This document shows positions 11,471-14,846 of a DNA stretch of 64,000 nucleotides, in pieces (within the stretch, counting starts at the first letter, position 1; each line of letters starts with the position of its first letter). The position numbers and the translations under genes were made by a program. The notes beneath the pieces were generated by a model. The model saw only the letters and a list, made by a program, of their open reading frames with translations. It was not told the origin of the DNA and made no database searches. Origin of the DNA: Pseudomonas sp. ML2-2023-3 (GTDB lineage Bacteria; Pseudomonadota; Gammaproteobacteria; Pseudomonadales; Pseudomonadaceae); contig NZ_CP146343.1 of NCBI RefSeq assembly GCF_037055275.1, positions 3,010,501 through 3,074,500 of the forward strand, read 5' to 3'.

Positions 11471-11580
11471 GGGGTGTTTTCCTTGGTGTTGTTAACCGTA
11501 AAAAACACCTTAGTCGATATCGACTTCGCGCAGCCGTGGGCATATTCCCGGGCTGCGCAGAGGTTTGCCGAGCAGGCTTG

Positions 11581-12669
11581 TCAGGCGATGACCCGGGCGA
11601 CGCGGCGCTGTGTTTGCAGCTGTTGGGCGGCGTTGCGCAGCAAGTGCTCGGTGGCATCCCAGCCCAGGCAGCCATCGGTCACGGAAACCCCGTAGCGCAT
11701 GTTCGCACTCAGGGGCTGGCAGCCTTCGAACAGATGGCTTTCGAGCATCATGCCAATCAGGGAGTGATCACCTGCCAGGCGCTGTTCGAGCACATCATTG
11801 AACACTTCCGGCTGGCGCAACGGGTCTTTGCCGCTGTTGGCGTGGCTGCAGTCGATCATCATGCGGGCCGGGATGGCGCTTTTTTCCAGTCCGGCGCGAG
11901 CCTTGGCCACACTGGCGCGGTCGTAGTTCGGGCCGCTGCGGCCACCGCGCAGTACCAGATGGGTGTCGGGGTTGCCGGGCGTCTCGACGATTGCCGGATG
12001 GCCCTGGCTATCGACCCCGAAATGACGGTGACTGTGCGCGGCAGAGCGCATGGCATCGCAGGCGATTGCCACACCGCCGTCAGTGCCGTTTTTGAAGCCT
12101 ACCGGCAGATCAAGGCCGCTGGCCATTTCGCGGTGAATTTGCGATTCGGTGGTGCGGGCGCCAATGGCCACCCAGCCCAGCAGGTCGTCGAAGTAGCCTG
12201 CAGCGATGGGCTGCAACAGTTCGGTGGCGACCGGAAGGCCCATGCGCAGGATTTCGAGCATCAGTTCCCGTGACAGGGTCAGGCCGTGAGCCATGTCATC
12301 GCTGCCATCCAGGTGCGGATCGTAGGCCAGGCCTTTCCAGCCCACAGTCGTGCGCGGTTTTTCGATGTAGGCACGCATGACCAGTAGCATGTCGTCGCTC
12401 ACTTCATGGGCCAAGGCTGCGAGATTGCTGGCGTATTCGAGTGCGGCGAGGGGGTCGTGGATGGAGCAGGGGCCGACAACCACCAGTAAACGGGAGTCTT
12501 CACCGTTGAGGATGGCGCGAATGGCCTGGCGCTGGCTGCTGATCTGCTCGCGAAGCTTGATGCTCAGGGGCAGTTGCTGTTTGAGTTGCGCTGCGCTGGG
12601 CAGGCGACGGGTCGAAATCTGGGTAGTTGCAGTGTGTACGGCTGGCAGAGCGGATACGGATGCGTTCAT
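11581..12669 (-). CDS. aroF: 3-deoxy-7-phosphoheptulonate (DAHP) synthase, class I
   Basis: A 362-residue AroFGH-type DAHP synthase. It condenses phosphoenolpyruvate and erythrose 4-phosphate in the first step of the shikimate pathway. Motifs are LVVVGPCSIHDP, MRAYIEKPRTTVGWKGL, RTTESQIHREMASGL, PVGFKNGTDG and DCSHANSGKDP. The ATG at 12669 (MNASVSAL) is chosen; the longer frame to 12837 is not supported by homology. The isozyme letter is tentative. The 460-base leader contains an aromatic-rich peptide gene, an intrinsic terminator and a second small ORF, implying control by aromatic amino acid supply. Confidence 0.92.
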   Translation of the reverse strand: MNASVSALPAVHTATTQISTRRLPSAAQLKQQLPLSIKLREQISSQRQAIRAILNGEDSRLLVVVGPCSIHDPLAALEYASNLAALAHEVSDDMLLVMRAYIEKPRTTVGWKGLAYDPHLDGSDDMAHGLTLSRELMLEILRMGLPVATELLQPIAAGYFDDLLGWVAIGARTTESQIHREMASGLDLPVGFKNGTDGGVAIACDAMRSAAHSHRHFGVDSQGHPAIVETPGNPDTHLVLRGGRSGPNYDRASVAKARAGLEKSAIPARMMIDCSHANSGKDPLRQPEVFNDVLEQRLAGDHSLIGMMLESHLFEGCQPLSANMRYGVSVTDGCLGWDATEHLLRNAAQQLQTQRRVARVIA

Positions 12670-12716
12670 GGTTTGTGCTTCCTGGGCAGGCGGCGGGTTC
12701 TCCCGCGCGCTCAGCC

Positions 12717-12869
12717 CTACTGGGGTGTTCGACAATTGGCCAGACTGGCTATGAGTGCTTGCGTGCCACCAATGTGGGTCCGTTCGGAGGCGGCAGGCTG
12801 TCCCGAACGGCGGCTGATAAATCGCCATGCAGTGCAAAGGTCGAAGCGGTAATAAGTGGCGTAGTTCAT
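12717..12869 (-). CDS. putative 50-codon leader ORF with aromatic N-terminal cluster
   Basis: A small ORF starting MNYATYYRFDLCTAWRF, with three Tyr, two Phe and one Trp in the first 17 codons, lies between the attenuator terminator and the DAHP synthase start. A good site, TTGAGGAT, precedes its ATG by seven bases. It stops 48 bases before aroF. Inside it an exact 8-bp inverted repeat (CCGTTCGG at 12780-12787, CCGAACGG at 12803-12810) could form a hairpin just after the aromatic codons. The ORF may be a second regulatory leader peptide. Translation is not proven, and I do not recognise a family. Confidence 0.5.
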   Translation of the reverse strand: MNYATYYRFDLCTAWRFISRRSGQPAASERTHIGGTQALIASLANCRTPQ

Positions 12870-12907
12870 GGGGTAAATCCTCAATTCAATAAAATGTCAG
12901 GGGCCAG

Positions 12908-12944
12908 AAAAACAAAACCCCCGGTCGGGAAGCCGACCGGGGGT
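12908..12944 (-). terminator. attenuator terminator in the aroF leader
   Basis: On the minus strand a perfect 12-bp GC-rich stem (ACCCCCGGTCGG / CCGACCGGGGGT) with loop CTTC is followed by TTTGTTTTT. It lies 49 bases after the stop codon of the aromatic leader peptide and about 240 bases before aroF. That is where a ribosome-controlled attenuator is expected. Confidence 0.85.
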
Positions 12945-12992
12945 GAGAATTCTCTGGTAGGCGACCCCTAAGTAGTGGGCGCCGTGTGGGTA

Positions 12993-13127
12993 TCAGGCGC
13001 GCCAGTGGCTAAACCAATACCCAAAATAAAATCGTGCGGTGGAGTGCATGTTGTTCGCGCACACAGATTCAGCCAGACGCTCGTCGCGTGCGGTCTTACA
13101 AATGTCTGTGGGGGCGTGATGCAACAT
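12993..13127 (-). CDS. aromatic-rich leader peptide of the DAHP synthase gene
   Basis: A 44-codon ORF starts at an ATG (13127) seven bases after GGAG. It ends in RFYFGYWFSHWRA and a TGA at 12993, so seven of ten consecutive codons near the end specify Phe, Tyr or Trp. The arrangement of control codons, stop, then an intrinsic terminator 49 bases on is that of pheL/trpL-type transcription attenuation. A ribosome stalled at aromatic codons would favour read-through into aroF. An internal ATG gives an 18-residue version, but it lacks a visible ribosome-binding site. The mixed Phe/Tyr/Trp run suggests the signal is general aromatic shortage rather than one amino acid. Confidence 0.75.
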   Translation of the reverse strand: MLHHAPTDICKTARDERLAESVCANNMHSTARFYFGYWFSHWRA

Positions 13128-13137
13128 GGGTGGTCTC

Positions 13138-13379
13138 CGATTGATGGTTCGCAGCTTACTTGAGGCGAACGGGCGTATTCAATCAAAAAATACTATGTGG
13201 ATTAACAATTCAGACTATTGCCATCAGAGTCAGGGGCAGGCGAGATGTTTATTCGAACCGGTCACGAACACGTGAGGGCCCTGTTTCGGGCTTTGCGCCG
13301 CCGCTCGCCGTGCGTGCTGTTGGGGGGGGAGGGCGTGCCTGAATACTAAATCGGGAGTCACGCCCGATTAGGCGCATAC
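13138..13379. other. non-coding stretch upstream of the aroF leader
   Basis: About 240 bases separate the leader peptide start from the gp16-like gene. The part next to 13180-13230 is AT-rich and should hold the leader promoter, but I cannot fix -35/-10 boxes with confidence. A plus-strand 34-codon ORF (13245-13349) is present and has no recognised relative. An inverted repeat, AATCGGG/CCCGATT at 13349-13369, lies just past the stop of the minus-strand gp16-like gene and could end its transcript. Confidence 0.5.
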
Positions 13380-13622
13380 TCAAGCGAACTCATCACCTTC
13401 TGCCTCAACTGAATGTGTGGTCTGAGAGGCAATGATGCCGTCTTTCATGCCCACAAGAACCGCTACCTTGTGGGCTTCACCACGCTTCCCCTTTTTGCGC
13501 CCGGCGAGCACTTGATAAGTGGTGGCCGGGTCGACGCCATGTTCCCGAGCGAACTCTTGAACGGATTTCCCCTGGTATTCCAGCCATGCCTTGGCTTGTG
13601 CGGCAGTACGAATTCCGGTCAT
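13380..13622 (-). CDS. small DNA-binding protein, BcepMu gp16-like
   Basis: An 80-residue protein with the pattern KAWLEYQGKSVQEFAREHGV, then DPATTYQVLAGRKKGKRGEAHKVAVLVGMKDG. This is a helix-turn-helix followed by a basic stretch, as in the BcepMu gp16 family of phage regulatory proteins. It is divergent from a phage-repressor-like gene 63 bases away, the layout of a phage early switch. No other phage genes surround it, so it is a remnant or a domesticated pair. Role inferred only. Confidence 0.65.
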   Translation of the reverse strand: MTGIRTAAQAKAWLEYQGKSVQEFAREHGVDPATTYQVLAGRKKGKRGEAHKVAVLVGMKDGIIASQTTHSVEAEGDEFA

Positions 13623-13685
13623 AGTTCAAAACCGTTCAATTTTGTTTAATATTTATGGATTATACCATCCTTGCGGGTGTTTAAA

Positions 13686-14091
13686 ATGGGATCCTACATC
13701 CAAATGAGTGGAATTGGTTTGCGCTTGCGCCAAGAGAGAGAGCGACTGGGTTTGTCGCAGAAAGCTTTTGGCGAAATTGGTGGTGTCGAGGCGAATGCCC
13801 AAGGCAAATATGAGAGTGGTGATCGCGCGCCCAAGGCGGACTACTTGTCGCGGGTCGCGGGTCGCAGGGCGTGGGGTGGATGTGCTGTTTGTATTGACCG
13901 GCAGCCCAACCCCGACATTAGTAGACAACCTCAGTCATATAGAAGAAAAAGTCCTGACCAGCTACCGGGTCTTGCAAAAGGAAGATCAGGACGCCATCCG
14001 CCGCTTGACCACAACCTTGGCCGAGCTGTCTGTCGCTCACCCGGCAAAGGAACTTCGTGATCCTGAAGATATTGAGGCCGTCAAGGGCTGA
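13686..14091 (+). pseudogene. Cro/CI-type HTH regulator, frameshifted by a 7-bp tandem duplication
   Basis: The 5' part encodes an XRE-type helix-turn-helix (IGLRLRQERERLGLSQKAFG, then KYESGDRAPKADYL). The rest, VDVLFVLTGSPTPTLVDNLS to DPEDIEAVKG, continues in the +1 frame. The switch point holds GTCGCGG GTCGCGG GTCGCAG (13847-13867). Removing one 7-base unit restores a continuous frame reading YLSRVAGRGVDVLF. The gene would encode about 133 residues from the ATG at 13686, or slightly fewer from 13704. As sequenced, the DNA-binding domain is followed by unrelated out-of-frame residues. The ORF pair is divergent from the gp16-like gene. Confidence 0.8.
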
Positions 14092-14207
14092 ATATTTACA
14101 AGGATTTAACGCTTTGGCGTGGATAGTTGACGCAAGTCGGTAGGTTGGTGGATTAGTTTTTGCTAAGGTGTCCACAATCAACCAAGACCAATTTGCGAGG
14201 TATCGAC

Positions 14208-14846
14208 TTGATTCGGGTTCTAGTGGTCGATGACCACGATCTTGTGCGTACAGGGATCACACGAATGCTGGCCGATATCGAAGGCTTGCAAGTGGTCGGT
14301 CAGGCCGAGTCCGGTGAGGAGTCCCTTCTCAAGGCCCGCGAGCTGAAGCCTGATGTGGTTTTGATGGATGTCAAAATGCCCGGCATTGGTGGTCTGGAAG
14401 CTACCCGCAAGATGATGCGCAGCCACCCCGACATCAAGGTTGTCGCCGTGACGGTGTGTGAAGAAGACCCTTTTCCGACGCGCTTGCTGCAGGCAGGCGC
14501 CGCAGGCTACATGACCAAGGGCGCGGGTCTGGCCGAGATGGTCCAGGCAATCAGGCTGGTATTCGCCGGTCAGCGCTACATCAGCCCGCAAGTCGCACAG
14601 CAATTGGCACTCAAATCCTTTCAGCCTGCAAGTGACTCTCCGTTTGATGCCCTGTCCGAGCGCGAAATTCAGATCGCGCTGATGATTGTGGGCTGTCAGA
14701 AGGTCCAGGTCATTTCAGACAAACTTTGCCTGTCGCCCAAGACGGTCAATACCTACCGCTACCGCATTTACGAGAAGCTCTCGGTCAAAAGCGATGTTGA
14801 ACTGGCCTTGCTGGCTGTTCGTCACGGCATGGTCGATGCTGGTTAA
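14208..14846 (+). CDS. gacA: response regulator GacA (UvrY)
   Basis: A 212-residue NarL/FixJ-type regulator, the partner of the sensor GacS. It activates transcription of the Rsm small RNAs and so secondary metabolism and exoproducts. Receiver residues Asp8, Asp9 and the phospho-acceptor Asp54 (in [10 protein letters not shown]) are present, as is the Lys of YMTKGAG. The C-terminal LuxR-type HTH reads [14 protein letters not shown] to [17 protein letters not shown]. The start is TTG at 14208 with GCGAGG seven bases upstream, as known for gacA; the frame to 14160 is not used. uvrC starts two bases after its stop, the classical gacA-uvrC operon. Confidence 0.97.

Follow-up and report, generated by a model that had tools for sequence, protein, structure and literature searches.

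Organisation of the region upstream of the DAHP synthase gene

The window (the whole 64,000-nucleotide stretch of Pseudomonas sp. ML2-2023-3 DNA analysed here) carries on its minus strand a DAHP synthase gene scoring 453 bits with TIGR00034 (aroFGH) and 529 bits with NF009395. Two type I-alpha DAHP synthases have been described in Pseudomonas aeruginosa (PMC6435475). Upstream of the gene, on the same strand, lie two short ORFs with aromatic codons, separated by an intrinsic terminator; the second ORF contains a pseudoknot, and a hairpin (H3) follows its stop codon (Table 1). The first-pass annotation had described ORF1 and the terminator and had missed ORF2, the pseudoknot, H3 and the presence of an Rfam family. 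When the whole window was scanned against Rfam, two matches were obtained, a tRNA and RF00627, 'Pseudomonas sRNA P15'. The RF00627 match covers the full model and far exceeds the gathering score of 70 bits. Its coordinates mean that the 'sRNA' model starts inside ORF1 and stops at the terminator. Rfam types the family as a gene (sRNA), and its 5′ part consists of the codons of the aromatic leader ORF1. The function of P15 is, to our knowledge, not known; the RNA was reportedly detected in P. aeruginosa by Northern blot.

Table 1. Features of the DAHP synthase leader region (window coordinates)
Feature	Coordinates	Strand	Basis
Promoter-like site: TTGAAT (13182-13177), 18 nt, TAAGCT (13158-13153)	13153..13182	minus	locus comparison
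ORF1, first aromatic leader peptide (44 aa, ending RFYFGYWFSHWRA)	12993..13127	minus	ORF list, conservation, pN/pS
Rfam RF00627 'Pseudomonas sRNA P15', last part of ORF1 to terminator	12918..13035	minus	122.3 bits, E 1.4e-24
Helix S1 (GGGUAUUGGU with stretch down to AUACCC)	12988..13022	minus	consensus fold
Alternative helix S2 (GCGCC.. with ..GGCGC)	12979..13000	minus	mutually exclusive with S1 and S3
Helix S3 (GGCG-CCC with GGG-U-CGCC)	12960..12983	minus	92.7% of cells paired, 0 both-side changes
Candidate antiterminator S5 (GUCGCC 12965-12960 with GG-U-CGGC 12938-12932)	12932..12965	minus	excludes S3 and terminator
Intrinsic terminator, 12-bp stem and U tract	12917..12944	minus	local scan; alignment
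ORF2, second aromatic leader peptide (50 aa, MNYATYYRFDLCTAWRF...CRTPQ)	12717..12869	minus	GAGG at 12882-12879; pN/pS
Trp-Arg-Phe codons TGG CGA TTT of ORF2	12819..12827	minus	103/108 Pseudomonadaceae loci
H-type pseudoknot in ORF2	12765..12810	minus	covariation, shuffles, covariance model
Hairpin H3, ORF2 stop codon (12719-12717) to synthase Shine-Dalgarno site AGGAA (12683-12679)	12684..12717	minus	stop-to-start folds
DAHP synthase, aroFGH (type I-alpha) family, start ATG 12669	11581..12669	minus	TIGR00034, NF009395

The first leader peptide

Re-reading the coordinates bore out the 44-codon ORF described earlier, with its ATG at 13127, its TGA stop at 12995-12993, and GGAG seven nucleotides 5′ of the ATG. 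The C-terminal sequence had been given as RFYFGYWFSHW, which is correct as far as it goes and lacks the two final residues. ORF1 and the terminator do, as claimed, lie on the strand of the synthase gene (12669 to 11581). Among 224 control ORFs, itself included (all those in 464 kb of the Pseudomonas sp. ML2-2023-3 genome that start with ATG, span 25-60 codons and have a Shine-Dalgarno site), ORF1 ranked as the most aromatic, with seven F/Y/W in 14 residues; the runners-up had five.

RF00627 matches were found in 113 of 148 Pseudomonadaceae genomes. We read 110 of these loci (those of G028, G048 and G144 were left out), and 109 were usable, L072 being dropped because it was mis-oriented; L170, whose contig is equally long, carries both leaders. 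In all 109, ORF1 has a Shine-Dalgarno site, and Phe, Tyr and Trp all occur within its last 16 residues; GYWFS is exact in 105. The ratio pN/pS, computed over sequence pairs that are not independent, was 0.56 in the ORF1 frame and 1.07 and 0.90 in the other two frames, and spacer controls gave 0.86-1.06 across all three frames.

The TAAGCT of the promoter-like site lies 25 nt ahead of the ORF1 start. Among relatives the pattern TTGAA[AT]-N18-TA[AT]G[CG]T recurs approximately 21-26 nt 5′ of ORF1, and over 106 distinct upstream regions the best match per locus averaged 7.45 of 12, as against 6.19 in shuffled sequences. The window holds another promoter-like site of equal score (7), and that at 13182-13153 was chosen for its likeness to the sites of relatives. 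A local promoter scan of 11500-14500 reported no promoter.

Terminator and alternative folds

The perfect 12-bp terminator stem claimed 3′ of ORF1 was confirmed: there are 12 pairs, 10 of them G-C, with a loop of four, the stem running from 12944 to 12917 and being followed by TTTGTTTTT. The distance from the ORF1 stop to the stem is 48 nt, and not the 49 given earlier. When the leader from 12905 to 13060 was folded, its energy had a z-score of -5.8, and none of 200 shuffled sequences was equally low.

Covariation was assessed in an alignment (A1) of 39 non-redundant sequences out of 108. The consensus fold consists of S1, S3 and the terminator, 31 pairs in all, with 94.7% of cells paired. Both sides change in four of these pairs, a number reached in 2 of 500 shuffles, and the covariation score exceeded that of all 500; the number of pair types was not above that in shuffles. 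Taken singly, the terminator has 97.9% of cells paired and two pairs with changes on both sides, and the outer helix of S1, a helix which contains the Tyr and Trp codons and the ORF1 stop codon, has 95.1% and two such pairs. S2 has 91.1% of cells paired and a both-side change in one pair. S5 is near-invariant (97.9% of cells paired, no pair with both-side changes). For S2 and S5 together the count of both-side-changing pairs was no higher than in shuffles.

The first-pass annotation had proposed folding the minus-strand RNA in search of mutually exclusive structures. Such structures exist, and the chain S1-S2-S3-S5-terminator has the parity that is right for stalling to give read-through; the antiterminator in this chain lacks covariation support. 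With a ribosome placed at the Trp codon and the 3′ arm of the terminator not yet made, the RNAalifold consensus consisted of S2 and the GUCGCC/GGUCGGC helix (S5). With the ribosome at the ORF1 stop codon it consisted of S3 and the terminator. When the window sequence was folded alone, as truncated RNA with the ribosome at Trp, S2 formed, but the terminator's 5′ arm was paired with AGGGG rather than GUCGCC. Pairing between the freed region and this arm has an energy of -7.3 to -19.2 kcal/mol. The terminator was present in every full-length minimum-energy fold computed, in all states tried, and the freed region could compete with it only kinetically. As modelled, S5 is a plausible proposal for the antiterminator.

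In the A1 alignment the U of GGUCGG, part of terminator pair 114-125, is unpaired in 7 of 39 sequences, and in six of these the U is retained while the 3′ arm is altered. A retained U would fit a second, antiterminating role of the 5′ arm. One locus (L086) has an insertion of approximately 150 nt between the terminator and ORF2; nothing in its terminator, in ORF2 or from there to the start of the synthase looks disturbed.

Distribution of P15 and its association with DAHP synthase

A DAHP synthase gene 58-100% identical to that of the window lies downstream on the same strand in all 109 usable loci. The association was also examined with a 16-mer of ORF1, GGGTATTGGTTTAGCC, which gave at least 119 exact matches in named genomes. 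Among the matches listed, 89 had an ATG ORF with a Shine-Dalgarno site, and 83 of these had the synthase 150-450 nt further on; in five of the other six the fetched stretch ended first, and one was a chance match in a Shewanella MAG. Two of the 30 other listed matches start too near the end of the stretch, with the synthase present, and the rest resemble chance 16-mers.

We checked 20 of the 35 Pseudomonadaceae genomes without P15. A synthase match was found in 19, always 50-54% identical, which resembles the paralogue in the genome of Pseudomonas sp. ML2-2023-3 itself; the remaining genome, 70% complete, gave no synthase match. Since P15 lies in front of one synthase subfamily, no member of which turned up in the 20 genomes checked that lack P15, the two appear, from these comparisons, to be gained and lost together.

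Across the class, RF00627 matched in 7 of 369 genomes, with two matches above the cut-off (the window's genome and one relative). Leader, terminator and synthase are present at L230, L231 and L233; two weak matches (L232 and L234) with no synthase match nearby were taken as chance. The leader extends to other families: Halotalea, Alcanivorax and two genomes (L230, L231) of a further family. In L259, L261 and, as read by eye, L264, nothing but an aromatic ORF and a terminator precedes the synthase. The aromatic leader of L261 and L264, which belong to the same order, is a different one; it lies approximately 350 nt ahead of the synthase match and is accompanied by a terminator: FFWWFGYGFYFSQ in L261 and, by eye, WWFGYGFYFSQ in L264, with no ORF2 seen in either. 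The first-pass annotation had suggested an alignment across Pseudomonas and had named absence of conservation as a refuting result. In Pseudomonadaceae, and outside that family too, the mixed Phe/Tyr/Trp block is conserved and so is the terminator; the refuting result therefore did not appear.

A second aromatic leader, ORF2

Downstream of the terminator, an ATG ORF with a Shine-Dalgarno site was found in all 108 scored Pseudomonadaceae loci, by a procedure that favoured aromatic candidates (L072 and L086 were left out of the scoring; L086 has ORF2 by eye). Its ATG lies 104-159 nt past the ORF1 stop. The peptide has a Tyr-rich start, with 4-9 aromatic residues among the first 25, and its Trp-Arg-Phe (WRF) core is spelled TGGCGATTT in 98 of 108 loci. 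The value for the window, six aromatic residues in the first 25, is unexceptional in its own genome, being found in 4 of the 224 control ORFs including ORF2 itself. pN/pS was 0.50 in frame, compared with 0.98 and 0.84 in the other two frames.

ORF2 is also present in the halomonad family, by which we mean the family holding the apparent Halotalea (the leader peptides of L308 are those of L189). The synthase was found in 49 of 61 genomes of this family, and 30 loci were read; TGGCGATTTA is present in 24 of the 30. ORF2 was not seen in L175, L259, L261, L264 or four of the 30 halomonad-family loci (L309-L312), and it is reduced in two Alcanivorax. Judged by this distribution, ORF2 is dispensable in evolution.

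A search of approximately 5.8 billion proteins returned 40 relatives of ORF2, hypothetical or uncharacterized where named. There was no match to NCBIfam, and the single Pfam match fell below the cut-off (12.1 against 24.4 bits) and was discarded. Rfam at a loose threshold gave no match in 12640-12900.

In most Pseudomonadaceae loci ORF1 and ORF2 have in common W-(R)-F-S, in the same codons TGG-(CGA)-TTT-AGC, a hint that one of the leaders originated as a duplicate of the other. In both ORFs, TTTAG conceals a stop codon in the -1 frame. Shortly before the ORF2 stop, CGAACA (Arg-Thr) is conserved in many Pseudomonadaceae loci, third codon positions included; no pairing partner for it was found by eye.

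A pseudoknot within ORF2

RNAalifold on the whole ORF2-to-start alignment, with short and long forms of ORF2 mixed, gave only weak structure. When the long forms were split from the short ones and the halomonad sequences were added, a pseudoknot appeared. In the window, stem 1 pairs CCGUUCGG (12810-12803) with CCGAACGG (12787-12780), and stem 2 pairs GCCGCC (12794-12789) with GGUGGC (12770-12765). The structure starts 17 nt past the T of TGG.

For each distinct form of ORF2 we took the best candidate starting 12-23 nt past the T of TGG. The pseudoknot was found in 80 of 81 distinct forms, namely 25 of 25 halomonad forms, 54 of 54 long forms from Pseudomonas and the form from G418; the exception was L333. 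It starts 16-19 nt past this T in 76 forms and 21 nt past it in four. Shuffled sequences matched the quality of the pseudoknot in 3 of 1600 cases for the 80 forms, and in 0 of 760 in a first run on 38 forms. The short forms behaved differently: of the 85 tested, candidates appeared in 15, and in no case did one outscore every one of the 20 shuffles made from that form. The short forms thus lack the pseudoknot, which is seen in the longer forms of ORF2 in the window's lineage and the halomonad family.

In an alignment of 34 sequences (A4), 95.4% of pseudoknot cells are paired, and stem 2 is paired in every cell. Six pairs have changes on both sides, as many as in 3 of 500 shuffles; the covariation score was reached in none of the 500, and covariation is seen in both stems. 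Sliding one strand by three columns gave seven both-side-changing pairs, with only 47% of cells paired. Substitutions at L326 and L331 affect most letters of stem 1, and a C-G pair of stem 2 has become U-A there, yet both stems still pair; as A4 is one column off there, part of stem 1 was counted as unpaired at these loci. G418 (L233) has other letters in both stems (GCUGGCGG/CCGCCGGC and GAGCGCU/GGCGCUC), with place and geometry kept. Loop 1 is partly conserved by eye and loop 3 is not. From the covariation in its two crossing stems, we conclude that the element is an H-type pseudoknot.

A covariance model of the pseudoknot was run with strict filters, under which G418 is missed. Matches came from 2 of the 369 genomes in the class and 12 of the 293 in the order, a single one in each. 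They fall only in the window's genus and the halomonad family, either directly past P15 or directly ahead of the synthase. In some Pseudomonadaceae, CUGGCG in ORF2 was seen by eye to be complementary to CGCCAG, located between the synthase Shine-Dalgarno site and start; this pairing was dropped because it is absent from the window and other relatives.

Hairpin H3 and the synthase start

A hairpin of the H3 type was found in 88 of 90 distinct stop-to-start regions, with a mean z-score of -2.3 and a z-score below -1 in 77. The gap between the ORF2 stop and the synthase is 35-49 nt, filled by H3, in 103 of 105 measured Pseudomonadaceae loci; in the other two (L109 and L110), which are without H3, it is 15 nt. 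H3 does not include the synthase Shine-Dalgarno site, and in 46 of 90 folds at least two of its four nucleotides are paired in a separate weak hairpin.

Gaps were also measured at 26 halomonad-family loci (including L258 and L260 and several close relatives; six loci without TGGCGATTTA were left out). From the ORF2 stop to the synthase ATG the distance is -4 (ATGA) in seven, 2-26 nt in 12 and 32-45 nt in seven. A stop codon at or near the downstream start, as in coupled gene pairs, was thus found in 19 of 26; in Pseudomonadaceae the same arrangement is seen only if H3 is counted as a bridge. The simplest reading of these distances is that the ORF2 stop stays near the ribosome-binding site of the synthase, either along the linear sequence or by way of a hairpin.

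A proposed two-checkpoint model

Both ORFs, the terminator, the pseudoknot and the hairpin, with their spacing, their conservation and their link to the synthase, are established by the sequence comparisons above. On this basis we consider it probable that the region is a two-checkpoint leader of the DAHP synthase gene, acting first at transcription and then at translation.

At the first checkpoint, a ribosome on ORF1 would decode the Phe/Tyr/Trp block and, if charged aromatic tRNA is short, stall there. The stalled ribosome would block S1, so that S2 forms and S3 is broken; the freed GUCGCC could then base-pair with the terminator's 5′ arm, and RNA polymerase would read on. A ribosome at the ORF1 stop, or one that never loaded, would leave S3 and the terminator to form, and the short P15 RNA would be released. 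Translation of the two ORFs, like stalling and antitermination here, and coupling and the sensing of aromatic amino acids by ORF2 below, is what we infer from these arrangements. P15 itself is, from its sequence, best read as a ribosome-mediated attenuator.

The second checkpoint would be translational. Read-through RNA would carry ORF2, with its Tyr-rich start and then Trp-Arg-Phe. The ORF2 stop overlaps the synthase start, adjoins it or is separated from it by a single hairpin, so that translation of the synthase would be coupled to ribosomes that finish ORF2. The leading edge of a ribosome lies approximately 16 nt ahead; with Trp in the P site it would come up to stem 1. An estimate of 12 nt beyond the translated codon is given in PMC4833913. 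The pseudoknot is placed where this edge would arrive during decoding of the Trp or Arg codon of WRF, which should make passage slow and dependent on aromatic tRNA. Such a barrier would apply in the window's lineage and in the halomonads. If the pseudoknot is a gate, a shortage at ORF2 should lower synthase output, opposing the first checkpoint, and this might cap the synthase in severe starvation; an arrest caused by plentiful free amino acid would carry the opposite meaning. We lean towards slow ORF2 decoding lowering synthase output. The more specific proposal is that one RNA carries two serial aromatic-codon sensors, the first deciding transcription and the second coupled to translation of the enzyme, and that the spacing of approximately 17 nt from WRF to the pseudoknot times the ribosome against the supply of aromatic tRNA; it is put forward tentatively, at a little under even chances.

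Alternative explanations

P15 might be a true trans-acting small RNA, with the inner ORF and the downstream gene incidental. Its Rfam type, the promoter-like site and the strong terminator would all suit such an RNA, but a terminated leader would resemble an sRNA on a blot. Moreover, the 5′ part of P15 consists of the codons of a conserved ORF with a Shine-Dalgarno site, and the RNA precedes one synthase subfamily, which did not turn up when 20 genomes lacking P15 were checked. We therefore regard this explanation as the least probable of those considered. By analogy, the leader could act in trans in addition; the Sinorhizobium trp leader RNA does so.

The role of ORF2 is where rival readings have more room. 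It could be a coupling or antenna ORF, or a Rho shield, that helps ribosomes to the synthase start, its aromatic codons being no sensor. Leader ORFs near a gene have been proposed to raise translation by reinitiation (PMC4833913), and the end of ORF2 is close to the synthase start or separated from it by a single hairpin. This explanation leaves the exact TGGCGATTT core and the Tyr-rich start without a cause, as it does the near-fixed distance from the Trp codon to the pseudoknot; it is unlikely on balance, yet it is the rival that we take most seriously. If instead the pseudoknot bound a ligand or protein, or stimulated frameshifting, it need be no ribosome barrier linked to WRF. It is compact and conserved, of the H type, with loop 1 partly conserved by eye, and the LEU element of actinobacterial leuA has been proposed as a protein binder (PMC1262725); a loop 3 that is not conserved, and stem letters that are free to change if paired, are unlike a ligand pocket. 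A programmed frameshift at WRF was rejected, as no XXXYYYZ slippery heptamer was seen by eye 5-9 nt ahead of the pseudoknot. We give these uses of the pseudoknot a small probability. ORF2 might also be an arrest peptide that stalls on plentiful free aromatic amino acid and shuts off coupled translation of the synthase, with a logic like that of TnaC. The sign would be as expected for end-product control, and the WRFS core is common to several families, whereas the distance from WRF to the stop varies widely; this explanation seems to us equally improbable.

Relation to known leaders

Ribosome-mediated attenuation is known in Pseudomonas, where trpE is controlled in this way, and the likeness to the trpL and pheL attenuators noted in the first-pass annotation is borne out by the layout: a short ORF with a Shine-Dalgarno site and end-product codons is followed by an intrinsic terminator and the gene, with predicted alternative folds of the right parity. 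The locus departs from trpL and pheL in three ways: a single block contains codons for three amino acids, the linked helices number five rather than three, and there is a second leader past the terminator. Comparison lends good support to the core of the earlier reading, namely an aromatic leader and an intrinsic terminator ahead of the synthase, but an attenuator would account for only the first half of the region. A block of three amino acids had been called unusual; multi-residue control blocks have precedents in the thr and ilv leaders. RF00627 is the same element as that described here; in our reading it belongs to the 5′ leader of the synthase, contains leader-peptide codons and has relatives outside Pseudomonas.

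Leaders of related genes have been proposed elsewhere. The uORFC-13-1 motif of Acholeplasma aroF (PMC8632094) likewise has a small ORF and a terminator before a DAHP synthase gene, with attenuation proposed, but its Phe codon comes from a run of U and it belongs to another lineage. Two candidate shikimate-gene uORFs (PMC6429828) resemble the present case in having a small ORF upstream and in the proposal of attenuation. In the sections of PMC8632094 and PMC6429828 on these elements, neither a second leader ORF nor a pseudoknot is described. For E. coli, too, leader control of aroF has been proposed (cited in PMC8632094), and the relevant part of a regulon survey names trp and pheA as RNA-attenuated (PMC5343134).

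For the second stage there are partial parallels. One is the LEU element upstream of leuA in Actinobacteria, which combines a leader ORF containing codons for the regulated amino acid with a conserved pseudoknot, but has a base stem joining the Leu codons to the Shine-Dalgarno box and concerns another gene, amino acid and phylum; the part of PMC1262725 on this element mentions no transcription attenuator ahead. In contrast to that arrangement, both stems of the present pseudoknot lie inside ORF2, 3′ of WRF and 5′ of the synthase Shine-Dalgarno site. ermB has two short leader ORFs before one gene under translational control, but an antibiotic is sensed rather than amino acids, and the part of PMC8274638 on this leader mentions no first-stage transcription attenuator. 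In leader-ORF reinitiation the leader stop is likewise near the gene start, and stalling at regulatory codons is said to lower reinitiation; the source is a general survey, and the portion concerned does not describe an aromatic tandem leader with a pseudoknot (PMC4833913). By analogy, stage one would be a further case of the trpL/pheL kind, and stage two would have partial parallels in the LEU element, ermB and reinitiation.

A search of the open-access literature listed no title or abstract on tandem transcriptional and translational amino-acid leaders and none on P15 as a leader; subscription papers were mostly outside its scope, so an earlier prediction of the first attenuator may exist. 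We know of no other amino-acid biosynthetic gene with such a tandem leader. If the model is right, the P15 'sRNA' family would be the released first half of a tandem leader, and a catalogued Pseudomonas sRNA would become a testable leader of the enzyme at the entry to the shikimate pathway. It would also show a single leader region weighing three end products by transcriptional and translational control in series. Natural losses, in loci without ORF2, the pseudoknot or the hairpin, offer ready-made comparisons.

Further upstream, at 13380-14091 of the window, two small ORFs resemble phage-type DNA-binding regulators by eye: one, with MTGIRTAAQAKAWLEYQGKSVQEFAREHG..., is on the minus strand, and the other is a plus-strand frame with GLSQKAFGEIGGVEANAQGKYESGDRAPKADYL. 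They sit between the DAHP synthase promoter and gacA- and uvrC-like genes, and may be a prophage remnant.
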